From NCBI GenBank assembly GCA_944320685.1, contig CALUIK010000001.1, forward strand, positions 186,001 through 250,000: a stretch of DNA of 64,000 bases, written 5' to 3'. How positions within the stretch are numbered: the first letter of the stretch is position 1; every line of letters begins with the position of its first letter. Of the stretch, positions 12,790 to 25,612 are shown in pieces. Under the pieces are notes generated by a model. It did not search any database and was not told where the DNA came from. It was given only the letters and a program-made list of their open reading frames with translations. A program made the position numbers and the translations under genes. Origin of the DNA: an uncultured Alistipes sp. Lineage in GTDB: Bacteria > Bacteroidota > Bacteroidia > Bacteroidales > Rikenellaceae.

Positions 12790-14121
12790 TCACTCCTCCA
12801 TAAGGCGCCGCTCGGCCTCATCGGCCGGCGCCGTATCGAACATATTGCGGGCAAACTTGCGCCTGATGGCATCGAGGCAAAGATTGCCGATACTCCCCTC
12901 ATGCGTATGGTGCAGCTCGCGGCCGTCGTGCTCGTATGTTCCCTGCTGCACGCGCATGCCCACTTCGCGGTAGGCGTCGCGGAAAGGTACGCCCCGCGCC
13001 ACGGCGTCGTTCACATCCTCCACCGTGAAGAGGTACTTGTACTTCCCGTCACTCAATATGTCGCGGTTTATCTGCATCTGCTCGATACCCATGCGCGCCA
13101 TCTTCAGGCAGTCGGCAATCTCGCCGAATGCTGGAACATATATCTCCTTCGTAAGTTGCATGTCGCGGAAATATCCCGACGGCAGGTTGGTCGATATGAG
13201 CGTCACCTCCAACGGCTGCGCCTGCATGCGGTTGCAGCGGGCGCGGATCAGTTCGAAGATGTCGGGGTTCTTCTTATGAGGCATGATGCTCGAACCCGTA
13301 GTGAAGGCGTCGGGCAGGCGCACGAAACCGAAATTGGCGCACGAATATAGGCACACGTCCTGCGCCAGCCGCCCGACAGTCGCCGCGACGGCCGCGATGG
13401 CCGCAAGGACCGTACGCTCGGTCTTGCCGCGCTGCATCTGCGCATATATCGAGTTGTAGGCCAAATCGTCGAAACCCAGCAGGCGCGTCGTCATCGTACG
13501 GTCCAGCGGCACCGACGACCCGTATCCCGCACCCGAACCCAGAGGATTGGTATTCACGAGCGCATAGGCCGCCTTGAGCTGCAGCATGTCGTCCGCCAGA
13601 GCCTCGGCATAGGCGCTGAGCCACAGGCCGAACGACGATGGCATGGCTATCTGCATATGCGTATACCCGGGCATCAGCACATCCCCATACTCCTCCGCCT
13701 TGGCGACCAGTGTCCTGAACAACGCCTCCACGTCACGCTGCAGTGCCGCCAGCGCCGCCCGCGAAAAGAGCTTGATGTCGACCATCACCTGATCGTTGCG
13801 CGAGCGTCCCGTGTGGATCCTCTTGCCCGCATCTCCGCACATCTCCGTAAGCATGAACTCCACTTGCGAATGGACATCCTCGACACCCTCCTCGATGCGG
13901 AACTCGCCGCGGCGGACCTTGCCGTAGATCTCCCGCAGGCCTTTTTCCAGCGCTGCACGGTCGTCGTCAGAGATGAGCCCTATCGAATGGAGCATCTTCA
14001 TATGGGCCATGTTGCCCAGCACGTCTGCCTCGGCCAGATATATGTCCAGCTCGCGGTCACGCCCTACGGTGAACCGCTCGACGAAAGAGTCGATGTCGTA
14101 TCCCTTATCCCAAAGTTTCAT
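12790..14121 (-). CDS. argH: Argininosuccinate lyase
   Basis: ArgH cleaves argininosuccinate to arginine and fumarate, the last step of arginine synthesis. The 443-residue protein shows the fumarase-superfamily signature GSSIMPHKKNPD, plus EDVHSQVEFMLTE, HTGRSRNDQV, MPGYTHMQIAMP and PLGSGAGYG. It lies about 150 nt downstream of argE, with a hairpin in between, and it abuts thiL. The start MKLWDKGYDIDSFVERFTVG is the typical one for the family. Confidence 0.97.
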   Translation of the reverse strand: MKLWDKGYDIDSFVERFTVGRDRELDIYLAEADVLGNMAHMKMLHSIGLISDDDRAALEKGLREIYGKVRRGEFRIEEGVEDVHSQVEFMLTEMCGDAGKRIHTGRSRNDQVMVDIKLFSRAALAALQRDVEALFRTLVAKAEEYGDVLMPGYTHMQIAMPSSFGLWLSAYAEALADDMLQLKAAYALVNTNPLGSGAGYGSSVPLDRTMTTRLLGFDDLAYNSIYAQMQRGKTERTVLAAIAAVAATVGRLAQDVCLYSCANFGFVRLPDAFTTGSSIMPHKKNPDIFELIRARCNRMQAQPLEVTLISTNLPSGYFRDMQLTKEIYVPAFGEIADCLKMARMGIEQMQINRDILSDGKYKYLFTVEDVNDAVARGVPFRDAYREVGMRVQQGTYEHDGRELHHTHEGSIGNLCLDAIRRKFARNMFDTAPADEAERRLMEE

Positions 14122-14268: not shown

Positions 14269-15333
14269 TTATTCCGACAGCACAAGTCCGTCCATCATCG
14301 TGACATATACTCCGACCGCCTCGTCTATCTCTGCGAGGCATATGTATTCGTCGGCCGTATGCGAGCGGGCGCTGTCGCCGGGCCCCAGCTTCACCGTCGC
14401 AAAGGGCATCACAGCCTGATTTGACAGCGTGGGCGACCCGAACGGCTTGCGTCCCAGCGCCGCAAGCCGCCGCACCGCAGGGTGCGACACGTCGATCGAC
14501 GACGAAGAGAGGTGCGTCGAGCGCGGCACCACGTCGCATGAGACACTGCGGCGTATCTCCTCCAGCAGCTCCTCGTTTCGGTAACACTCGTTCGGCCGCA
14601 CATCGACCATGAAACTGCACTCGGCCGGCACCACATTGTGCTGCGTACCCGCCTGCACACCCGTCACCGTCATCTTCACCGCCCCGAGCAGAGGCGATAT
14701 CCGTTCGAAACGGTGCGTACGGAACCACTCCATGTCGGGCAGGGCCTTGTATATCGCATTGTCGCCCTCGTCGCGCGCCGCATGCCCCGCGCGGCCATGC
14801 GACGTGCAGTCCAGAACCATAAGACCCTTCTCCGCCACGGCGGGATTCATCCCCGTAGGTTCGCCCACGACACCGAAGTCGATACGCCCCAACTCCCCTA
14901 TTACGGCCCGCACTCCTCCGGCGCCCGTAATCTCCTCCTCGGCTGAGGCCAGATATATCAGGTTATACGGCTGCGGCCGCTGCGCCAAAGCATCGAACGC
15001 TGCCAGCAGCGACACCACGCTGCCGCCCGTATCGTTACTCCCCAGACCGTAGAGGCGGCCATCCACGATGCATGCATCGTAGGGATCACGTCTCCATGCC
15101 GAAGACGGACGTACCGTGTCTATATGCGCATCGAACAACACCGTCGGCTTCGTCCCGTCGTGCGGCGCCGCCTCGGCCCACACGTTGTTTCCCTTGCGCT
15201 TCGGCGCATACCCCAGACGTGCGAGTTCCGCCTCCATTATGTCGGCGGCGGCCGCCTCCCCGCGGCTCGGCGAGGGGGTCGCTATAAGGCGCCGCAAAAG
15301 CGCCACCGCAGAGTCGAAATCCATACGCGCCAT
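14269..15333 (-). CDS. argE: M20 family N-acyl-ornithine/citrulline deacylase (ArgE-like)
   Basis: This 354-residue dizinc M20 deacylase sits inside the arg operon, so it most likely removes the N-acyl group from an arginine pathway intermediate. Metal ligands are visible in VLFDAHIDTVRP, the bridging Asp of GSNDTGG, the catalytic and metal Glu pair of SAEEEITGAGG, VGEPTGMN and the C-terminal His in RSHTADEYI. In Bacteroidota that use a carbamoyltransferase acting on acylated ornithine, the deacylase acts on acyl-citrulline instead of acyl-ornithine. Which applies here is not determined, because the carbamoyltransferase gene is absent. The stop of argB lies 11 nt upstream. Confidence 0.9.
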   Translation of the reverse strand: MARMDFDSAVALLRRLIATPSPSRGEAAAADIMEAELARLGYAPKRKGNNVWAEAAPHDGTKPTVLFDAHIDTVRPSSAWRRDPYDACIVDGRLYGLGSNDTGGSVVSLLAAFDALAQRPQPYNLIYLASAEEEITGAGGVRAVIGELGRIDFGVVGEPTGMNPAVAEKGLMVLDCTSHGRAGHAARDEGDNAIYKALPDMEWFRTHRFERISPLLGAVKMTVTGVQAGTQHNVVPAECSFMVDVRPNECYRNEELLEEIRRSVSCDVVPRSTHLSSSSIDVSHPAVRRLAALGRKPFGSPTLSNQAVMPFATVKLGPGDSARSHTADEYICLAEIDEAVGVYVTMMDGLVLSE

Positions 15334-15343
15334 ATCAAGCCGC

Positions 15344-16108
15344 TTATGCCGTTACCACGGTTCCGCCCGCAAGGTCGTGCGGCGAGGTTATGCGCACCGT
15401 ACGCACCCCCGCCGAAATGGTCCTGTAGGCATTGTCTATCTTCGGTATCATGCCCGAATGTATCTTTCCCTCGGCACGCAGCGCGGCATAGGTACCGGGT
15501 GTGATACGCGCTATGAGCGACGCCTCGTCGTCGACATCGAGCAGTACGCCCGCCTTGTCGAGCGTGAAGACCAGTTCCACGTCATACCGCGCCGCCAAAG
15601 CCGAAGCCACGGCCGAAGCCACACTGTCGGCGTTGGTATTGAGCAGTTCGCCCGCCGCCGAACAGGTTATGGGCGAAATGACGGGCGTAACGCCCGCGTC
15701 GAGCAGCATGCCCAGCACATCGGCCCGCACGCTGTCCACATCCCCTACATATCCCCAATCTATCTCGCCCGCGGCACGGCGGTGCGACACTACCACACCC
15801 ATGTCGCAGCCCGAGAGGCCGCAGGCATCGACGCCGCGTGCCTGCAACGCCGCCACGACGCGTTTGTTCGCCAGACCGGCGTACGCCATGACCGCTATGT
15901 CGAGAGTCGCGGCATCAGTTATGCGGCGCCCTTCATGCATCTTCACCTCCACGCCCAGCTTCTCGGCCAAGCGCGAACCCATGACGCCGCCGCCATGCAC
16001 CAGCACGAACGCCTCGCCGAGCGACACCAGTCCGTCGCACAGCGAAGCGAGCACCTCCCCGTTCTCGATCAGCCTGCCGCCGATCTTTATCACCTTTATA
16101 CTCTTCAT
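15344..16108 (-). CDS. argB: N-acylglutamate kinase
   Basis: ArgB phosphorylates N-acetylglutamate (N-succinylglutamate in some Bacteroidota) in the second step of arginine synthesis. It is an amino-acid-kinase-fold protein of 254 residues, with IKVIKIGGRLIEN at the N-terminus, FVLVHGGGVMGSRL, RRITDAATLDI, LLNTNADSVASAVA and KIHSGMIPKIDNA, which form the nucleotide and substrate sites. Its length matches the arginine-insensitive E. coli type (258 residues) and there is no N-terminal regulatory helix. It lies in the leftward arg unit between argD and argE. Confidence 0.95.
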   Translation of the reverse strand: MKSIKVIKIGGRLIENGEVLASLCDGLVSLGEAFVLVHGGGVMGSRLAEKLGVEVKMHEGRRITDAATLDIAVMAYAGLANKRVVAALQARGVDACGLSGCDMGVVVSHRRAAGEIDWGYVGDVDSVRADVLGMLLDAGVTPVISPITCSAAGELLNTNADSVASAVASALAARYDVELVFTLDKAGVLLDVDDEASLIARITPGTYAALRAEGKIHSGMIPKIDNAYRTISAGVRTVRITSPHDLAGGTVVTA

Positions 16109-16220: not shown

Positions 16221-17357
16221 CTACATACCCATCTCCGCAGCCGTAGCACGGAACGCCTCGGCGAAACGCTCCACCTCGCGCTCTCCTATCATAAGCGGCG
16301 GCAGCAGCCGCAACGTATTCTTGCCGGCGTATCCCGTCATGATATGATGATGCGACATGAGCACCTTACGGAAATCGGCCTGCGGAACAGGCAGATCAAC
16401 CCCGATCATAAGGCCGCGGCCGCGGATGTCCAGCACACCGCCGACACCCTTTATGGCCTCGACTATCTTGCCGCCCATCACGAGGGCATTCTCGACCAGA
16501 TTTTCGTCCCTGACCACATCGGCCACGGCAATAGCCGCGGCACAGGCCAGATGACTGCCGCCGAAAGTGGTGCCGAGCATCCCCGTACGTGCAGGCACCG
16601 CGGGCGAGATCATGATAGCACCGATCGGGAAGCCGTTGCCTATGCCCTTGGCCAGCGATATGATGTCGGGGCGCACGCCGGCCCACTGGTGGGCGAAGAA
16701 ACGGCCGCTGCGACCGTACCCCGACTGTATCTCGTCGAGAACCATCATCGTACCCGTCGCGTCGCACTCCTCCCGCACTGCGCGCAGGAAGTCGTCCGAC
16801 GCGGCATGGATACCGCCCACACCTTGGATACCCTCGACGATAACCGCCGCATAGGCCCTGCTGCGCAACTCGGTGCGCATGGCCTCGATGTCGTTCAGAG
16901 GCGTAAATGTCACCTTATCCGTACGGTTCACGGGGGCCTGTATCGCAGGGTTGTCCGTCACGGCCACAGCCATGCTCGTACGGCCGTGGAATGCGCCGCA
17001 CATGGCCAGCACTCGCTCGCGTCCCGTCGTGAACGACGCCAGCTTCAAGGCGTTCTCGTTGGCCTCGGCACCGCTGTTGCAAAGGAAGAGCGAGTAGTCG
17101 TCATAACCCGAGAGTTCGCCCAGCTTATGCGCCAGTTCGCGCTGCAGCGTGTTGATGACGGCATTCGAGTAGAAGCCGATCTTCGACAGTTGCGATGAGA
17201 TCATCTCGACATAGTGCGGATGCGTATGCCCGATCAAGATGACGGCATGGCCGCCGTAGAAATCGAGGTACTCCACACCGTTGCGGTCCCACAGATATGC
17301 TCCTTGGGCCTTTACCGGCTCCATGTCGAGCAGCGAATATACATTGAACAGTTCCAT
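16221..17357 (-). CDS. argD: N-acylornithine aminotransferase
   Basis: ArgD is a class III PLP aminotransferase that converts N-acylglutamate semialdehyde to N-acylornithine using glutamate. The 378-residue product from ATG 17357 (MELFNVYSLLDMEPV) has YLDFYGGHAVILIGHTHP, LFLCNSGAEANENALKLA, AFHGRTSMAVAVT, MMVLDEIQSGYGRSG with the PLP-contacting Asp, and the catalytic lysine in IISLAKGIGNGFPIGA. Upstream in-frame starts as far as 17432 give an N-terminus with no family match. The gene is separated by 93 bp from argC and by 112 bp from argB, with no obvious promoter in either gap. Confidence 0.95.
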   Translation of the reverse strand: MELFNVYSLLDMEPVKAQGAYLWDRNGVEYLDFYGGHAVILIGHTHPHYVEMISSQLSKIGFYSNAVINTLQRELAHKLGELSGYDDYSLFLCNSGAEANENALKLASFTTGRERVLAMCGAFHGRTSMAVAVTDNPAIQAPVNRTDKVTFTPLNDIEAMRTELRSRAYAAVIVEGIQGVGGIHAASDDFLRAVREECDATGTMMVLDEIQSGYGRSGRFFAHQWAGVRPDIISLAKGIGNGFPIGAIMISPAVPARTGMLGTTFGGSHLACAAAIAVADVVRDENLVENALVMGGKIVEAIKGVGGVLDIRGRGLMIGVDLPVPQADFRKVLMSHHHIMTGYAGKNTLRLLPPLMIGEREVERFAEAFRATAAEMGM

Positions 17358-17450
17358 AGTTTTCACGTATTTGTTTGATCGGGAAATAGATATATATTGC
17401 ATCCCCGCGCCCCTCATACATAGCGGCCGCACCCCACGCTCCGCCTCCCG

Positions 17451-18413
17451 TCAGAAGAAGCTGGCCTTCAGACGCAGGCCCGCGGTCTCGTCGAGGCCGA
17501 ACATGAGGTTCATGTTCTGCACCGCCTGCCCCGACGCCCCTTTCAGCAGGTTGTCCACCACCGAGGTCACCAGTAGTTTGCTGCCCGTCATCTGCAACGA
17601 CAGGAAACAGTAGTTCGTGTTGACAACCTGCTTCATGTATACGGGCTTGCCGCTCACACAGACGAAGGGGTGCGGCTCATAGTAGTCCCTGAATATCGAG
17701 GCGACATGCTCCGCATCGGCCTCCAGACGCACCACCACGTCACTCATGATGCCGCGCGTGTGGCATCCGCGCACCGGTACGAAAGCTATGTCGGTCGCAG
17801 GCGACCCGCCTGCTGCCGCCACCGTCTCGCCGATCTCGCCCAGATGCTGGTGCGTGAAGACCTTGTAGTTAGAGAGGTTTGCTGCGCGGTTGCTGAAATG
17901 CGTGTCGGGCGTAGGTTTCTGTCCCGCTCCCGTCGAGCCGGTAATGCCGACGACGGTCACCTCCTCGGGCAGCAGGCCCGCAGCCGCCAGCGGCAGCAGG
18001 GCCAGATTGATCGAGGTGGCGAAACATCCCGGGTTGGCGACGCAGCGACTCGCGCGTATACGGTCGCGGTTGAGTTCCGGCGCGCCGTAAACGAACTCGC
18101 CCGCATCGGCCTTCAGCCGGAAATCGTTGCTCAGGTCAATGATCTTGACACTCTGCGGCACGGGATTCTCGGCCAGAAACTTGGCCGAATTGCCGTGACC
18201 CATGCATATGAACAGCACGTCGATGTCATCGAAGTCTATGTCCGAGAAACACAACGGCGAATAGATCAGGTCGCTGTGCACCGACCCTACAGGCTCGCCC
18301 TTGTGCGATTCGCTCTGTATGTATTTCAGTTCGGCGTACGGATGGTTCACCAGTATGCGGATCAGTTCGCCCGCCGTATATCCCGCACCGCCTGCTATGC
18401 CCACTCTTATCAT
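17451..18413 (-). CDS. argC: N-acyl-gamma-glutamyl-phosphate reductase
   Basis: ArgC reduces N-acylglutamyl phosphate with NADPH to the semialdehyde. The 320-residue protein begins with a dinucleotide-binding IRVGIAGGAGYTAGELIRIL, contains CMGHGNSAKFL and the catalytic cysteine in VANPGCFATSINLAL, and ends with a dimerisation region. It lies between argG and argD on the minus strand. A hairpin-containing gap of 150 bp separates it from argG. Confidence 0.96.
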   Translation of the reverse strand: MIRVGIAGGAGYTAGELIRILVNHPYAELKYIQSESHKGEPVGSVHSDLIYSPLCFSDIDFDDIDVLFICMGHGNSAKFLAENPVPQSVKIIDLSNDFRLKADAGEFVYGAPELNRDRIRASRCVANPGCFATSINLALLPLAAAGLLPEEVTVVGITGSTGAGQKPTPDTHFSNRAANLSNYKVFTHQHLGEIGETVAAAGGSPATDIAFVPVRGCHTRGIMSDVVVRLEADAEHVASIFRDYYEPHPFVCVSGKPVYMKQVVNTNYCFLSLQMTGSKLLVTSVVDNLLKGASGQAVQNMNLMFGLDETAGLRLKASFF

Positions 18414-18563: not shown

Positions 18564-19751
18564 CTACTCCTCGTCGTTCACGGCGTGATAGATCTTCAAC
18601 GGCATCGACAGTATCTTCGTGAAACCCTTGACGTCGTCTGCCGTCCACGCATTGTTAATCTCACCGTACTCGGCAAACTTGGCGTTCATCAGGTCGTGCT
18701 TCGACTCGATACCCACCAGAGAGAAGGTGTAGGGACGCAGCGTAAGGAACACCTTGCCCGTAACATGGCGCTGGCTGTTGTCCAAGAACTTCTCGATGTC
18801 GCGCATGACGGGCTCCGAATACATGGCCTCGTGCATGAACATGCCGTACCACGTGCCGAGCTGGTCCTTCCAATACTGCTGCCACTTGGTGAGAGTATGC
18901 TTCTCCAGAAGCTCATGGGCCTTGATTATGAGCATCGGCGCCGCAGCCTCGAAGCCTACGCGGCCCTTGATACCCACCAACGTGTCGCCCACATGCGTGT
19001 CACGGCCTATGGCCCACGCCGAACCTATGGCCTCGAGCCTGTTGATCGCCTCAACCCCTTTCATCGCAACACCGTTCACAGCGACGACCTCGCCGCACTC
19101 GAACTCTATCTCGAGCTGCTCCGAGCCCTGCTTCCGCAACTGCGAGGGGTACGCCTCGTCGGGCAGGTTCGTAGCCGAGCACAATGTCTCCTTGCCTCCG
19201 ACCGACGTGCCCCACACACCCTTGTTGATCGAGTACTGCATCTTGGTGAAGTCGGCCTCGAAACCGTTCTCCTTCAGATACGAGATCTCGTATTCGCGCG
19301 TGAGTTTCATGTCGCGCGTGGGTGTTATGATCTCCATATGTGGTGCGAAGACCTCAAACGTCAGATCGAAACGAACCTGATCATTGCCCGCCCCCGTCGA
19401 ACCGTGAGCCACGGCGTCGGCGCCGATGCTCTTGGCATAGTTGACGATGGCCAGCGCCTGAAACGTACGCTCCGAACTTACCGATATAGGGTAGGTCTTG
19501 TTGCGCAATACATTGCCGAAGACCATATACTTGATACACTTCGAATAGTAGTCCCCCGTCACGTCGATGTTGACGTGCTGCTTGGCGCCGAGCGCATACG
19601 CGCGCTTCTCGACTGCGGCCAGCTCCTCGGCCGAGAAACCGCCCGTGTTGGCCAGCGCCGTATAGACCTCGTACCCCAACTCCTTGGTCAGGTACTTCAC
19701 GCAGAACGAGGTATCCAGACCGCCGCTGTATGCCAATACAACCTTTTTCAT
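18564..19751 (-). CDS. argG: Argininosuccinate synthase
   Basis: ArgG joins citrulline and aspartate with ATP to argininosuccinate. The PP-loop VVLAYSGGLDTSFCVKYL is at the N-terminus, followed by AHGSTGAGNDQVRFDL, TREYEISYLKENG and WAIGRDTHVGDTLVGIKGR; at 395 residues the length is standard. A clear ribosome binding site AAAGGAGAG sits just before the ATG, stronger than for most genes here. It follows the GNAT gene by 19 nt and should be the second gene of the leftward arg unit. Confidence 0.97.
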   Translation of the reverse strand: MKKVVLAYSGGLDTSFCVKYLTKELGYEVYTALANTGGFSAEELAAVEKRAYALGAKQHVNIDVTGDYYSKCIKYMVFGNVLRNKTYPISVSSERTFQALAIVNYAKSIGADAVAHGSTGAGNDQVRFDLTFEVFAPHMEIITPTRDMKLTREYEISYLKENGFEADFTKMQYSINKGVWGTSVGGKETLCSATNLPDEAYPSQLRKQGSEQLEIEFECGEVVAVNGVAMKGVEAINRLEAIGSAWAIGRDTHVGDTLVGIKGRVGFEAAAPMLIIKAHELLEKHTLTKWQQYWKDQLGTWYGMFMHEAMYSEPVMRDIEKFLDNSQRHVTGKVFLTLRPYTFSLVGIESKHDLMNAKFAEYGEINNAWTADDVKGFTKILSMPLKIYHAVNDEE

Positions 19752-19770: not shown

Positions 19771-20403
19771 TTATTTGCTTCTCTTGAATATACGGCCCAG
19801 CCACGATCCATTGTGCTCTCGGGTCTTTGCCTCTTCAGCCTTGCGCGCCTCCTCTTCGGCCCTGCGCTTGGCCACCTTTGCCGGATCGTAGATCATACCC
19901 GTACAGAGGCACTTGGTCATGTTAGTACGTTGCAGCACGTCGTAGTTGACACACGAGCGGCACCCTGCCCAGAACTCCTCGTCGTCGGTCAGTTTGGCGA
20001 ACGTGACGGGTTCGTAGCCCAGCTCGGTGTTTATGCGCATCACCGCCTCACCCGTCGTCAGCCCGAATATCTTGGCATTGGGGAAACGCTTGCGCGAGAG
20101 TTCGAACGCCGCCTTCTTGATGCGTTTGGCCACACCCATATTTCGGTATTGGGGGCGCACGATAAGGCCCGAGTTGGCCACGAACTCGTCATGTCCCCAC
20201 GACTCTATGTAACAAAATCCCACGAACTCCTCGCGGTTGACGGCGATAATCGCCTTACCCGAGTTGATCTTGTCGGCGATATATTCGTCCGTGCGGCGGG
20301 CGATACCGGTTCCACGGCTCTTCGCAGCCTCGTCAATAGCATCGTTTATCTGCGTGACATAACGCAGATGCTCTTTCGAGGCAACCATTACATCGATTTT
20401 CAT
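19771..20403 (-). CDS. GNAT acyltransferase, candidate N-acylglutamate synthase
   Basis: This 210-residue GNAT-fold protein heads the arg operon, directly behind an operator-like promoter. The acyl-CoA-binding loop is seen in IVRPQYRNMGVAKRI, preceded by the beta-strand GFCYIESWG. Downstream is a cysteine cluster: C-x2-C in AGCRSC and C-x-C in TKCLC, which could bind metal. The C-terminus is a lysine/arginine- and glutamate-rich tail. No argA or argJ is present, and this gene position would suit the missing first enzyme that acylates glutamate. That role is inferred from context. It differs from classical ArgA, which carries an amino-acid-kinase domain of its own. A general protein or amine acetyltransferase is the alternative. 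Confidence 0.75.
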   Translation of the reverse strand: MKIDVMVASKEHLRYVTQINDAIDEAAKSRGTGIARRTDEYIADKINSGKAIIAVNREEFVGFCYIESWGHDEFVANSGLIVRPQYRNMGVAKRIKKAAFELSRKRFPNAKIFGLTTGEAVMRINTELGYEPVTFAKLTDDEEFWAGCRSCVNYDVLQRTNMTKCLCTGMIYDPAKVAKRRAEEEARKAEEAKTREHNGSWLGRIFKRSK

Positions 20404-20449
20404 TGCAATAAATTTTATTACACTTGTTGTATTATAAGTTTCGCGGATG

Positions 20450-20695: not shown

Positions 20696-23600
20696 TCAGT
20701 ACGACCCCCAGCTCCGGATGGCAAGACCCTTGTCGCCTACAAGGCACACGGCCATTATGAACGACGAGGCCAGCCGTGCATTCGTCAACAGCGGTATGTT
20801 GAAGTCGATGGCCGCACGGCGGATCTTGTACCCGTTGTCCAGCTCGCGGCGGGTCTGGTTCTTGGGGATGTTGATCACCAGATCGACCTTCTTCTGCCTG
20901 ATGTAGTCGATAACCGTAGGCGCCCCCTTCTCGTCGGGCCAACCCACGACCTCAATATCCTTCACGCCATGCTGGAAGAGGAACTCGGCACTGCCGGCCG
21001 TGGCATAGACCTTGAACCCGTACTTGAGCAGCATCTTCGTCGCCGACAGCAGTTCGACCTTCGAGCGCGCCGGTCCCGACGATATGAGCACGTTATGCTT
21101 GGGTATGGCCTGTCCCACCGACAGAAGGCTCTTGAGCAGCGCCTCGTAATAGCTGTCGCCGATACATGCCACCTCACCCGTCGAGGTCATGTCGACGCTC
21201 AGCACCGGATCGGCATTCTGCAGCCGCGCGAACGAGAACTGCGACGACTTGACCCCGACATAGTCGATATCGAACATCGACTTGGGGTGCGTCTCGACGG
21301 CGCGGCCCAGCATCACGCGCGTGGCCATCGTGATGAAGTTGAACTTCATGATCTTCGACACGAAGGGGAAACTGCGCGACGCACGCAGGTTGCACTCTAT
21401 GACCTTCACATGATTGTCCTTGGCGAGGAACTGTATGTTGAAGGGCCCCGATATGTTCAGCTCGCGCGCGATCTTCTCGGCGATATGGCGTATCTGGCGT
21501 ATCGTCTCGAGATATATGCGCTGCGCCGGGAAGACTATCGTGGCGTCGCCCGAGTGCACGCCAGCATACTCGACATGCTCGCTTATGGCCGACACCTTGA
21601 TTACGCCGCGCTGCGCCACGGCATCCATCTCGATCTCCTTGGCGTGCTCGATGAACTCGCTCACCACGACCGGATGGTCGGAGCTGACCTCGGCCGCCTG
21701 ACTCAGGTAGTGGTCCAGTTCTTCCCGCGCATAGACCACATGCATGGCGGCGCCCGACAATACATACGACGGACGTATCAGCACCGGCAGGCCCACCTCG
21801 TCGACGAAATCGTAAATCGACTGCATGGTCGTAAGCTCGCGCCAGCGCGGCTGGTCAATGCCCAGCGCATCGCACATCGACGAGAACTTGCCGCGGTCCT
21901 CGGCCCTGTCGATCGACTCGGCCGACGTACCGAGGATGTTCACCCCCTGACGGTAGAGCGGCATTGCCAGATTGTTCGGTATCTGGCCGCCCGTCGATAC
22001 GACGACGCCGTAGGGCGACTCCATCTCGATGATATCCATCACGCGCTCGAACGTAAGTTCGTCGAAATAGAGGCGGTCGCATATGTCATAGTCGGTCGAG
22101 ACGGTCTCGGGGTTGTAGTTTATCATCACCGACCGCAACCCCACCTGCGAGAGGGTCTTGAGCGTATTCACGCCACACCAGTCGAACTCGACGCTGCTGC
22201 CTATACGGTAAGCGCCCGAACCGAGCACGATAACCGAACGGTGGTCGTGCTCGTACTCGATATCGTCCTTGGTGCCGTTGTATGTCAGGTAGAGGTAATT
22301 TGTCTGGGCCGGATACTCGCCCGCCAGCGTATCTATCTGCTTCACGCACGGGCGTATGCCCATTTCCAGACGGCGGCGGCGTATACACATCATACGCTCG
22401 AACATGGGCAGCGCCGAACGCGACATCGTCAGCTCGGCGATCTGGAAATCAGAGAATCCCATCCGCTTGGCCTCGTACAGCACGTCCGCCGGCAACGGCC
22501 CCGTACCGTCACCGTCATACCCGCGCAGCACGTTCTTGTACTCGTATATGCGGTACAGCCGCTGCAGGAACCAGCGGTCGATCTTCGTACGCTCGTATAT
22601 CTGGTCGATGGTATACCCCTGTTCGAAAGCCTCGGCTATGGCGTATACGCGCTTGTCGGTCGGGTGCTCCAGCTCGTCGTCTATATCCACCTCGACGGGT
22701 TTGTTGCCCACGAAACCGTGCTTGCCCTGCCCCACCATGCGCAGGCCCTTCTGTATGGCCTCCTCGAAGGTGCGGCCTATCGACATCACCTCGCCCACGC
22801 TCTTCATCGACGATCCGAGCAGCTTCGACACGCCGTCGAACTTGTTGAGGTCCCAGCGCGGGATCTTGCAGACGACATAATCCAGCGCCGGCTCGAAACA
22901 TGCCGACGTGACCTTCGTCACCGAATTCTTTATCTCGTGCAGCCCGTAGCCCAGACCGAGTTTGGCCGCAACGAACGCCAGCGGGTAACCCGTAGCCTTC
23001 GACGCGAGGGCGCTCGAACGCGACAGGCGCGCGTTCACCTCGATAACGCAGTAGTCCTCCGACTCGGGGTCCAGCGCATACTGCACGTTGCACTCTCCCA
23101 CAATGCCGATGTGGCGGATGATACGGATGGCGATGGCGCGCAGCTTGTGGTACTCGCTGTTGGTAAGCGTCTGCGACGGTGCCACCACGAGGCTTTCGCC
23201 CGTATGTATGCCGAGCGGGTCGAAGTTCTCCATGTTGCAGACCGTTATGCAGTTGTCGTAGCAGTCGCGCACGACCTCATACTCCACCTCTTTCCACCCC
23301 TTGAGCGACTTCTCTATGAGCACCTGCGGCGAATATGAGAACGCACTGGCGACGATCTTCTCCAGCTCCTCCTCGTTCTTGCAGAAGCCCGAGCCCAGAC
23401 CGCCCAGCGTGTAGGCGGCGCGTATGATAAGGGGGAATCCCAACTCGCCGGCCGCGGCCTTGGCCTCCTCCATGGTCGAGCATGCTACGCTGCGCGGAGT
23501 CTTGACACCGATCTCGGCCAGTTTCTCGGAGAAGAGCTTGCGGTCCTCCGTGTCGATGATGGCTTGCACGGGCGTGCCGAGCACCTCGACGCCGTAGCGC

Positions 23601-23920
23601 TCCAACACCCCTTTCTTGTAGAGCTCCACGCCGCAGTTCAACGCCGTCTGCCCGCCGAACGAGAGCAGTATGCCGTCGGGGCGCTCCTGCTCGATCACCT
23701 TCTCGACGAACTCTTCCGTAACAGGCAGGTAATATATCTTGTCTGCCACATCCTCCGACGTCTGCACCGTGGCGATGTTTGGGTTTATGAGCACGGTGTA
23801 CTTGCCCTCCTCGTGCATCGCCTTGAGCGCCTGCGATCCCGAATAATCGAACTCGCCGGCCTCGCCTATCTTCAACGCTCCCGATCCGAGGAGCAGAACT
23901 TTGTTTATCTCTTTTTTCAT
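20696..23920 (-). CDS. carB: Carbamoyl-phosphate synthase large subunit
   Basis: CarB makes carbamoyl phosphate from ammonia, bicarbonate and two ATP; it feeds both arginine and pyrimidine synthesis. The 1074-residue protein has the usual duplicated layout. Each half holds a pre-ATP-grasp and ATP-grasp domain: KVLLLGSGALKIGEAGEFDY and later SVIVLGSGAYRIGSSVEFDW mark the two starts, with RAAYTLGGLGSGFC and RPSYVLSGAAMHVV as the two ATP loops. A C-terminal MGS-like regulatory domain follows. The ATG at 23920 is chosen over a GTG at 23932 that would sit at the carA stop. It is transcribed with carA. Confidence 0.97.
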   Translation of the reverse strand: MKKEINKVLLLGSGALKIGEAGEFDYSGSQALKAMHEEGKYTVLINPNIATVQTSEDVADKIYYLPVTEEFVEKVIEQERPDGILLSFGGQTALNCGVELYKKGVLERYGVEVLGTPVQAIIDTEDRKLFSEKLAEIGVKTPRSVACSTMEEAKAAAGELGFPLIIRAAYTLGGLGSGFCKNEEELEKIVASAFSYSPQVLIEKSLKGWKEVEYEVVRDCYDNCITVCNMENFDPLGIHTGESLVVAPSQTLTNSEYHKLRAIAIRIIRHIGIVGECNVQYALDPESEDYCVIEVNARLSRSSALASKATGYPLAFVAAKLGLGYGLHEIKNSVTKVTSACFEPALDYVVCKIPRWDLNKFDGVSKLLGSSMKSVGEVMSIGRTFEEAIQKGLRMVGQGKHGFVGNKPVEVDIDDELEHPTDKRVYAIAEAFEQGYTIDQIYERTKIDRWFLQRLYRIYEYKNVLRGYDGDGTGPLPADVLYEAKRMGFSDFQIAELTMSRSALPMFERMMCIRRRRLEMGIRPCVKQIDTLAGEYPAQTNYLYLTYNGTKDDIEYEHDHRSVIVLGSGAYRIGSSVEFDWCGVNTLKTLSQVGLRSVMINYNPETVSTDYDICDRLYFDELTFERVMDIIEMESPYGVVVSTGGQIPNNLAMPLYRQGVNILGTSAESIDRAEDRGKFSSMCDALGIDQPRWRELTTMQSIYDFVDEVGLPVLIRPSYVLSGAAMHVVYAREELDHYLSQAAEVSSDHPVVVSEFIEHAKEIEMDAVAQRGVIKVSAISEHVEYAGVHSGDATIVFPAQRIYLETIRQIRHIAEKIARELNISGPFNIQFLAKDNHVKVIECNLRASRSFPFVSKIMKFNFITMATRVMLGRAVETHPKSMFDIDYVGVKSSQFSFARLQNADPVLSVDMTSTGEVACIGDSYYEALLKSLLSVGQAIPKHNVLISSGPARSKVELLSATKMLLKYGFKVYATAGSAEFLFQHGVKDIEVVGWPDEKGAPTVIDYIRQKKVDLVINIPKNQTRRELDNGYKIRRAAIDFNIPLLTNARLASSFIMAVCLVGDKGLAIRSWGSY

Positions 23921-23932
23921 ATCGTCTCGCAC

Positions 23933-25030
23933 TCAATGTTTCGCGGCTTTCCACGCCTTGATGTTTTCGATGAATTCGTCGAACAGGTACTCTGTGTCGA
24001 CCGGACCGCTCGACGCCTCGGGATGGTACTGCGTCGAGAAGAAAGGTTTGCTGCGGTGGCGTATTCCCTCGTTGGTGCCGTCGTTTACATTGACGAACAG
24101 GGTCTCCCACTCCTCGGGCAGCGTGCGGTCGTCTATGGCGAAACCGTGGTTCTGCGACGTAATGAAGCAGCGGTTGGTACCGGGTACCGTCACCGGCTGG
24201 TTGTGGCCGCGGTGGCCGTATTTGAGCTTGTATGTCGCCGCCCCCGCCGCACGGGCCAGAAGCTGGTTGCCGAGGCATATCCCCATAATAGGCCTATCTT
24301 CGCGCAACGCCGCAGCGATGTGGGCGATCGTCTCGCCGCACTGCGACGGGTCGCCCGGGCCGTTCGAAAGGAATAGCCCGTCGTAATCCTCCTGCGAGAA
24401 GTCGTAATCCCACGGCACGCGTATAACCGTAGCGCCGCGGCGCAGCAGGCACCGCAGGATATTGTACTTCACGCCGCAGTCGACCACCACCACGCGGTAT
24501 GGCCCGTCGCCGTAGACCCTGCGCTCGCGCGAGGATACCTGCGCCACCACATTGTCCACGTTCGGGTCGTAGAAGTCGGGCACGGCCTCGCCCTCGATCT
24601 CAATACGCCCCAGCATCGAACCGCTATCGCGCAGGCGCTGGGTGACGGCACGCGTATCGACACCGCATATGGCGGGCACATGCTGCTCGCGCAACCACTC
24701 GCCGAGGCTCTTGTCGGCGTTCCAATGGCTGTACTCGTACGAGTAGCACGACACCACCAGCGCCGAACAGTGTATGCGGTCCGACTCGTAGAATTTCTCG
24801 ATGCCCCACTCGTCGCGCTCGTCCGACGGCACGCCGTAGTTTCCGATCAGCGGATATGTGGGCACAAGTATCTGCCCCTTGTAGGAGGGGTCGGTAAGGC
24901 TCTCCACATAACCCGTCATGGCGGTATAGAAAACCACTTCGCCGGCTACCGGAGCCTCATATCCGAACGACCATCCTTCATATCGGGTTCCGTCCTGCAA
25001 TACCAGAACCGCTCTTCTTTTAGTCTGCAT
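23933..25030 (-). CDS. carA: Carbamoyl-phosphate synthase small subunit (glutaminase)
   Basis: CarA releases ammonia from glutamine for CarB. The 365-residue protein has an N-terminal CPSase domain (LVLQDGTRYEGWSFG, FYTAMTGYVESLTDPSY, GVDTRAVTQRLRD) and a C-terminal class I glutaminase domain with the nucleophile cysteine in MGICLGNQLLA and the His/Glu pair in QYHPEASSGP. The ATG at 25030 (MQTKRRAVLVLQ) starts at the conserved region; an upstream in-frame start at 25072 would fall within the promoter. The gene is divergent from argR, so arginine control of carAB through the shared gap is likely. Confidence 0.96.
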   Translation of the reverse strand: MQTKRRAVLVLQDGTRYEGWSFGYEAPVAGEVVFYTAMTGYVESLTDPSYKGQILVPTYPLIGNYGVPSDERDEWGIEKFYESDRIHCSALVVSCYSYEYSHWNADKSLGEWLREQHVPAICGVDTRAVTQRLRDSGSMLGRIEIEGEAVPDFYDPNVDNVVAQVSSRERRVYGDGPYRVVVVDCGVKYNILRCLLRRGATVIRVPWDYDFSQEDYDGLFLSNGPGDPSQCGETIAHIAAALREDRPIMGICLGNQLLARAAGAATYKLKYGHRGHNQPVTVPGTNRCFITSQNHGFAIDDRTLPEEWETLFVNVNDGTNEGIRHRSKPFFSTQYHPEASSGPVDTEYLFDEFIENIKAWKAAKH

Positions 25031-25046
25031 AGATATGTTGCCTTTG

Positions 25047-25075
25047 CAAATATTTTCAAACATTGGACACACAAA
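25047..25075 (-). promoter_or_regulatory. Candidate promoter of carAB
   Basis: On the minus strand, TTTG (25072-25075), a 17-nt spacer and AATATTTG (25047-25054) lie just upstream of the carA ATG at 25030. The spacer is slightly short of the usual 19. The leader would be only about 12-15 nt, which also rules out the carA start at 25072. Confidence 0.45.
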
Positions 25076-25144: not shown

Positions 25145-25612
25145 ATGAATCAGAAAACACAACGCTTCGCAACAATCCGCAAGATCATCCGCAGCGAGTT
25201 GATCGGGTCGCAGGACGAACTCATCACTCGCCTGCGCGAATGCGGCGTGGAGATAACACAGAGCACGCTGTCGCGCGACCTGAAGTTCATGAACGTCGCC
25301 AAAGTCCCTCACAAGAGCAAGGGATACATCTACGTACTGCCCAACACGGCAAGTCACGAGATCAACATATCGTCGAACATATCGGACAACATCACCGGCC
25401 TCACCTTCTCGGGCAATCTCGGCGTGCTGAAGACCAAATCGGGGTATGCCAGCGCCATATCCGTCCCCATCGACAACCTCGACTGCCCCGACATCCTCGG
25501 CACCATAGCCGGCGACAACACCGTGCTCCTCATACTGCGCGAGAATGCCAACCGCAACCATGTAATCGAGGCGCTGCTTCGCATATTCCCCATGCTGAGC
25601 AACGTGCTGTAA
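25145..25612 (+). CDS. argR: Arginine repressor
   Basis: ArgR is the hexameric arginine-dependent repressor. This 155-residue protein has the N-terminal winged helix (about 1-75) with the recognition segment ITQSTLSRDLKFMNV, and the C-terminal arginine-binding and hexamer domain with GTIAGDNTVLLILRE near its end. It is divergent from carAB and next to the arg biosynthesis unit, so its targets are probably the operator-like palindromes at 20456-20473 and 25106-25124. A strong terminator follows directly. Confidence 0.95.
   Translation: MNQKTQRFATIRKIIRSELIGSQDELITRLRECGVEITQSTLSRDLKFMNVAKVPHKSKGYIYVLPNTASHEINISSNISDNITGLTFSGNLGVLKTKSGYASAISVPIDNLDCPDILGTIAGDNTVLLILRENANRNHVIEALLRIFPMLSNVL

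Follow-up and report, generated by a model that had tools for sequence, protein, structure and literature searches.

Which enzyme begins arginine biosynthesis in a bacterium whose arginine operon carries neither argA nor argJ? The question is raised by a stretch of 64,000 nucleotides from an uncultured Alistipes sp. (GenBank assembly GCA_944320685.1, contig CALUIK010000001.1, positions 186,001 to 250,000 of the forward strand), referred to here as the window. A first-pass annotation, made from the sequence alone, proposed that the GNAT gene heading this operon encodes the missing glutamate N-acyltransferase. We suggest that this is very probably so, and we hold with considerable confidence that the gene product is ArgA2, the Bacteroidota-type N-acylglutamate synthase, most likely using succinyl-CoA. 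The first-step gap in the arginine pathway of this genome would then be filled by argA2, and the organism is hence likely an arginine prototroph with succinylated intermediates. The assignment of the ArgA2 family is already in print (PMC7311316, PMC9026213); both the family and its place in the operon were known before, and the earlier idea is very probably correct and is not new. The gene is the following.

19771 to 20403, minus strand: argA2, encoding a GNAT-fold N-acylglutamate (probably N-succinylglutamate) synthase of 210 amino acids, assigned from the open reading frame (ORF), Pfam, a structure model, conservation and the published family assignment.

The reading frame, taken from the ORF list of the window, opens with ATG and has exactly the coordinates first given for it. 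Pfam Acetyltransf_1 matches its product above the gathering cut-off (E 3.5e-06). The sole NCBIfam match (E 3.7e-07) lies far under the cut-off of its model, so that family scans by themselves call the protein a GNAT and nothing narrower. Neither the classical ArgA model TIGR01890 nor the ArgJ model TIGR00120 gave an NCBIfam match at E 0.001, only GNAT families being matched. The gene does head the operon, as had been proposed: 19 bp separate it from argG, which is followed on the same strand by argC, argD, argB, an M20 deacylase gene and argH, the genes after argA2 lying 10 to 150 bp apart.

18564 to 19751, minus strand: argG, argininosuccinate synthase, which in some Bacteroidota is fused to ArgA2 (Pfam above cut-off; TIGR00032 slightly under cut-off).
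17451 to 18413, minus strand: argC, N-acylglutamyl-phosphate reductase (Pfam; TIGR01850 above cut-off).
16221 to 17432, minus strand: argD, N-acylornithine aminotransferase (Pfam above cut-off; best NCBIfam match TIGR00707, under cut-off).
15344 to 16108, minus strand: argB, N-acylglutamate kinase, 254 amino acids, in which no GNAT domain was found (Pfam; TIGR00761 above cut-off).
14269 to 15333, minus strand: M20 deacylase, a probable N-succinylcitrulline desuccinylase (Pfam above cut-off; ArgE/DapE family under the NCBIfam cut-offs).
12790 to 14121, minus strand: argH, argininosuccinate lyase (Pfam; TIGR00838 above cut-off).

The best solved relative of the M20 deacylase is 3ct9 (E 2.9e-130), and by its likeness to BT3549, which the GapMind study put forward as a candidate desuccinylase (PMC7311316), it is probably an N-succinylcitrulline desuccinylase.

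For Bacteroides thetaiotaomicron the GapMind study reports no ArgA or ArgJ candidate, and it places BT3761 in arginine biosynthesis from genetic data (PMC7311316). The same source gives BT3761 as more than 50% identical to its homologue in Caldithrix abyssi. A later paper describes the family under the name ArgA2, identifies BT3761 as UniProt Q8A1A5, finds members of the family in arginine operons of genera that include Bacteroides, Prevotella and Alistipes, and reports that BT3761 mutants grow poorly on minimal medium and are rescued by arginine (PMC9026213). Both papers use the term N-succinylglutamate synthase, which the later one proposes for the family. The nearest relatives of the window locus are Alistipes metagenome-assembled genomes (MAGs).

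Is there another first enzyme elsewhere in the genome? The assembly that was searched comprises 2.49 Mb in 14 contigs and is 97.5% complete. An ArgJ profile found no match in it, the same search being positive in 10 of 14 control genomes. The ArgA profile gave nothing above its cut-off; since it passes that cut-off in just one of the 14 controls, this negative covers the classical type only. Below the cut-off it matched argB, through the kinase part, and a generic GNAT (a 158-residue ORF, E 1.2e-5). Searched against its own genome, the argA2 protein found only itself, in one copy. The first-pass statement that argA and argJ are lacking, made from the window, therefore holds genome-wide for ArgJ and for the classical type of ArgA.

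The distribution of the gene across the phylum points the same way. In a sample of 296 genomes, ArgA2 (E <= 1e-10, at most ten candidates per genome being scored) was found in 124, with E 3e-74 or better among the matches listed, and ArgJ (E <= 1e-30) in 121, of which 120 were above the family cut-off. The two occur together in a single genome (G227), and 52 genomes have neither. A close succinyl-type carbamoyltransferase is present in 111 genomes, every one of which has ArgA2; the line between close and divergent carbamoyltransferases was drawn at a gap in E values (6e-77 vs 1e-64) after the values had been seen. In the other 13 genomes with ArgA2 the carbamoyltransferase is divergent, and its position 90 is occupied by Ala or Val, never by Glu. 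The genomes of the sample are related, and these counts are not independent events.

We also note 20 genomes of the sample that have an AOTC/SOTC-like (divergent) carbamoyltransferase and neither ArgA2 nor ArgJ (loci L145-L159 and L161-L164, and genome G290). In eight of them a short GNAT frame of 153 to 216 amino acids matches the acetyltransferase part of ArgA. In a rough inspection of such genomes, no clear GNAT was seen before argG among ORFs of more than 110 codons on the argG strand ending within 1.2 kb upstream; one unassigned ORF was found there, in L153. G223, which has ArgJ, carries Thr at position 90.

In 73 of the 80 loci from named genomes argG follows argA2 immediately, in six the two genes are fused, and the last (L010) is cut by a contig end; argA2 and argG are also neighbors in 28 of the 29 other phylum loci with the best scores. 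In nine loci ArgA2 and ArgG form a single reading frame of 586 to 630 codons, stop to stop. Six of these are in named MAGs of Bacteroidales or Bacteroidia (L034, L038, L041, L042, L044 and L065) and three in the phylum sample (L171-L173). Such fusions are further evidence for an arginine pathway role of ArgA2.

The structure model of the argA2 protein, built from a 37-sequence alignment (pLDDT 91.7, pTM 0.85), predicts a GNAT fold. Its best solved match is the N-acetylglutamate synthase of Neisseria gonorrhoeae, 2r8v (Foldseek E 6.3e-09; VIA-align Z 17.0, root-mean-square deviation 2.7 over 150 residues). The ArgA of Mycobacterium tuberculosis, 5yo2, is fourth in both Foldseek and VIA-align at Z 15.6, with N-terminal acetyltransferases at equal Z.

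The first-pass annotation had also drawn attention to a cysteine cluster and a charged tail. The cluster is as described, with C-x2-C at Cys148 and Cys151 and C-x-C at Cys165 and Cys167, lying between the last two strands of the model (131-133 and 168-172). All four cysteines are kept in each of 128 relatives, namely the 80 named-genome loci, the 29 other phylum loci, 13 copies outside arginine operons and six second copies, and the pattern is no product of chance. These relatives were all found by similarity to the window protein, and no more than 127 of them are distinct, since L103 and L135 represent one gene and the named genomes may overlap with the others. The window protein does have a charged C-terminal tail, but the length and sequence of this tail vary among relatives. 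Arg87 and Gly90 are likewise invariant across this alignment, and we take R87-x-x-G90, from general knowledge of the fold, to be the CoA-binding P-loop of GNAT proteins.

A second, more diverged ArgA2 (L165-L170) occurs in six of the 124 genomes that have the gene, with no arginine genes beside it, the stretch around L170 having one M20-type ORF. These copies keep the four cysteines in all six cases, with Tyr41 changed in all six and Glu67 in five, so that the cysteines outlast other well-kept sites. The second copies possibly act on another acceptor.

The four cysteines probably bind a structural metal, with zinc as a first guess. A bolder proposal, which we put forward tentatively and think rather less likely to be right than wrong, is that ArgA2 is a metal-containing GNAT in which a C-x2-C-x13-C-x-C zinc or iron site, in the last inter-strand loop beside the acceptor pocket, shapes the succinyl/glutamate pocket or acts as a redox or arginine switch replacing the kinase-like domain, with the ArgG fusion linking the entry step of the pathway to one near its end. 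No report of an ArgA2-ArgG fusion, or of a cysteine or zinc role in ArgA2, appeared in listings of open-licence PubMed Central papers or in word searches of the two papers on the family.

As to the acyl donor, the choice between acetyl-CoA and succinyl-CoA had at first been left open, and it is the carbamoyltransferase of the same genome (L084, encoded elsewhere) that favors the latter. This enzyme matches the N-succinylornithine transcarbamylase of Bacteroides fragilis (1js1/2fg6) at E ~1e-175. Acetyl-type and succinyl-type carbamoyltransferases are described as differing at three positions, Glu92, Asn185 and Lys302 in the Xanthomonas campestris enzyme vs A/S/P/V/Q, P and V/I/E (PMC4581275). 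L084 has Ser92, Pro183 and Ile287 there (ORF numbering) and is, by this residue signature, of the N-succinylornithine type. Succinyl-CoA is therefore favored over acetyl-CoA, and is the more likely donor of the window ArgA2 on this residue comparison. The 80 named-genome loci yielded 47 carbamoyltransferases, in which the first specificity position is Ser in 19, Val in 17, Pro in six, Ala in three, Thr in one and Ile in one, and Glu in none.

A number of observations weigh against an ArgA2 that makes N-succinylglutamate, and they are set out here together with two alternatives. One is that the true substrate of the GNAT is something else, such as a protein or an antibiotic, that its place in the operon is incidental, and that the pathway is started by another enzyme. 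GNATs are diverse, and Pfam says no more than GNAT. The fold by itself does not settle function, as 2r8v leads the next chain by just 1.2 Z units, GNAT folds being alike, other GNATs lie at similar Z, and the arginine-bound Neisseria enzyme 3d2p ranks only 27th (Z 14.8). A short or odd ArgA may exist elsewhere in the genome, given how few controls pass the ArgA profile cut-off; short types were not directly searched, and the 158-residue GNAT does weakly match the acetyltransferase part of ArgA. Lastly, in 13 of the 124 ArgA2 genomes, those with the divergent carbamoyltransferase, the sequence examined around argA2 contains no other arginine gene. Against a GNAT of unrelated substrate stand the near-complete exclusion between ArgA2 and ArgJ, the co-occurrence of ArgA2 with the succinyl-type carbamoyltransferase, the nine fusions to ArgG and the published arginine-rescued fitness defect of BT3761 (PMC9026213), and we regard this alternative as hardly credible.

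The other alternative keeps the same step and changes the donor: the enzyme would be an N-acetylglutamate synthase, or would accept both donors, as for the Caldithrix homologue. It is true that Cabys_1732 of C. abyssi has been described as an N-acetylglutamate synthase, from data that its authors cite as unpublished (PMC5317091), that the closest solved fold belongs to an enzyme using acetyl-CoA, and that GapMind itself words the role of BT3761 as "probably N-succinylglutamate synthase" (PMC7311316). His176, Arg178 and Arg278 are described as the succinyl anchors of the B. fragilis enzyme (PMC4581275); L084 keeps the histidine at the first of these and has Lys at the position of Arg178, a residue it shares with the acetyl enzyme of X. 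campestris. Moreover, position 90 holds a succinyl-type residue (Ala in 18, Pro in one) in all 19 genomes examined of the 20 noted above that have a divergent carbamoyltransferase and lack both ArgA2 and ArgJ (G290 being left out), with the carbamoyltransferase in an arginine cluster in each, so that the residue is no pointer to ArgA2 by itself. We nonetheless consider an acetyl or mixed donor unlikely. The own carbamoyltransferase of this genome has all three succinyl-type residues, the Glu of the acetyl enzyme is replaced by Ala or Val in all 13 divergent enzymes of ArgA2 genomes, and the ArgB of B. fragilis is reported to be an N-succinylglutamate kinase (cited in PMC7311316). An acetyl-type sub-branch of ArgA2 was considered for those same 13 genomes and rejected, as the Glu expected at position 90 occurs in none of them.

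If the window protein is indeed a succinyl-CoA-dependent ArgA2, the reaction that we infer would run as follows. The P-loop R87-x-x-G90 would hold the CoA pyrophosphate in the manner of other GNATs, and the deprotonated amino group of L-glutamate would attack the thioester of succinyl-CoA to form N-succinylglutamate and release CoA, with the four invariant cysteines between the last two strands presumably holding their structural metal. N-succinylglutamate would then pass to arginine by way of ArgB, ArgC, ArgD, the succinyl-type carbamoyltransferase, the M20 desuccinylase, ArgG and ArgH.

Upstream of argA2 the window holds a further group of features that bear on the setting of the operon.

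20404 to 20422, no strand assigned: a 19-bp near-palindrome, TGTAATAAAATTTATTGCA in minus-strand reading, directly 5' of the argA2 ATG; a candidate operator only.
20696 to 23932, minus strand: putative carB, carbamoyl phosphate synthase large subunit (similar ORFs in relatives).
23933 to 25072, minus strand: putative carA, carbamoyl phosphate synthase small subunit (similar ORFs in relatives).
25145 to 25612, plus strand: argR, arginine repressor, divergent from carA (PF01316 and PF02863 above cut-off).

The names carB and carA are our own presumption, from the translations. The putative pair lies between argR and argA2 in the window and also in L001 and L003, and 14 other loci (L004-L007, L009-L015, L018, L019 and L025) have an opposite-strand argR before argA2 with no car gene between them. 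The promoter of argA2 had been called operator-like in the first-pass annotation, and this stands in part: a 19-bp near-palindrome does abut the ATG, but it recurs near-exactly only in the three nearest relatives. Scored over 160 upstream bases in each of the 80 named relatives (92 bases for L023), it is found with no or one mismatch only in L001-L003, the next best having four mismatches. The whole genome has one exact site and two others with three mismatches each, and a backward control pattern gave one match. With near-exact copies in three of 80 relatives and no second genomic site below three mismatches, we make no claim that it is an ArgR operator.

It remains to set the window protein beside the known enzymes of this step. 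Classical ArgA (2r8v, TIGR01890) joins a kinase-like domain to a GNAT domain, and residues 285-434 of 2r8v, its GNAT part, form the best structural match; the window protein has no amino-acid-kinase domain and no match to that family above its cut-off. The short N-acetylglutamate synthase of M. tuberculosis (Rv2747; 5yo2, 5yge) is likewise a GNAT chain, of fewer than 170 residues, without a kinase domain, and is close in fold; its identity to the window protein is 12-16%, and it is absent from the sequence matches to the PDB. Cabys_1732, as far as its published description goes, also heads an arginine locus (argAGCBEH), and its authors describe the gene as confined to Bacteroidetes and C. abyssi (PMC5317091); it is reported as an N-acetylglutamate synthase, in contrast to the probable succinyl type in the window. 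The remaining counterpart is BT3761. The proposed orthology rests on operon place, on ArgA2 being single-copy in 118 of the 124 genomes and on the published description; on these grounds we take the window protein to be the orthologue of BT3761, with no difference of substance seen between the two.
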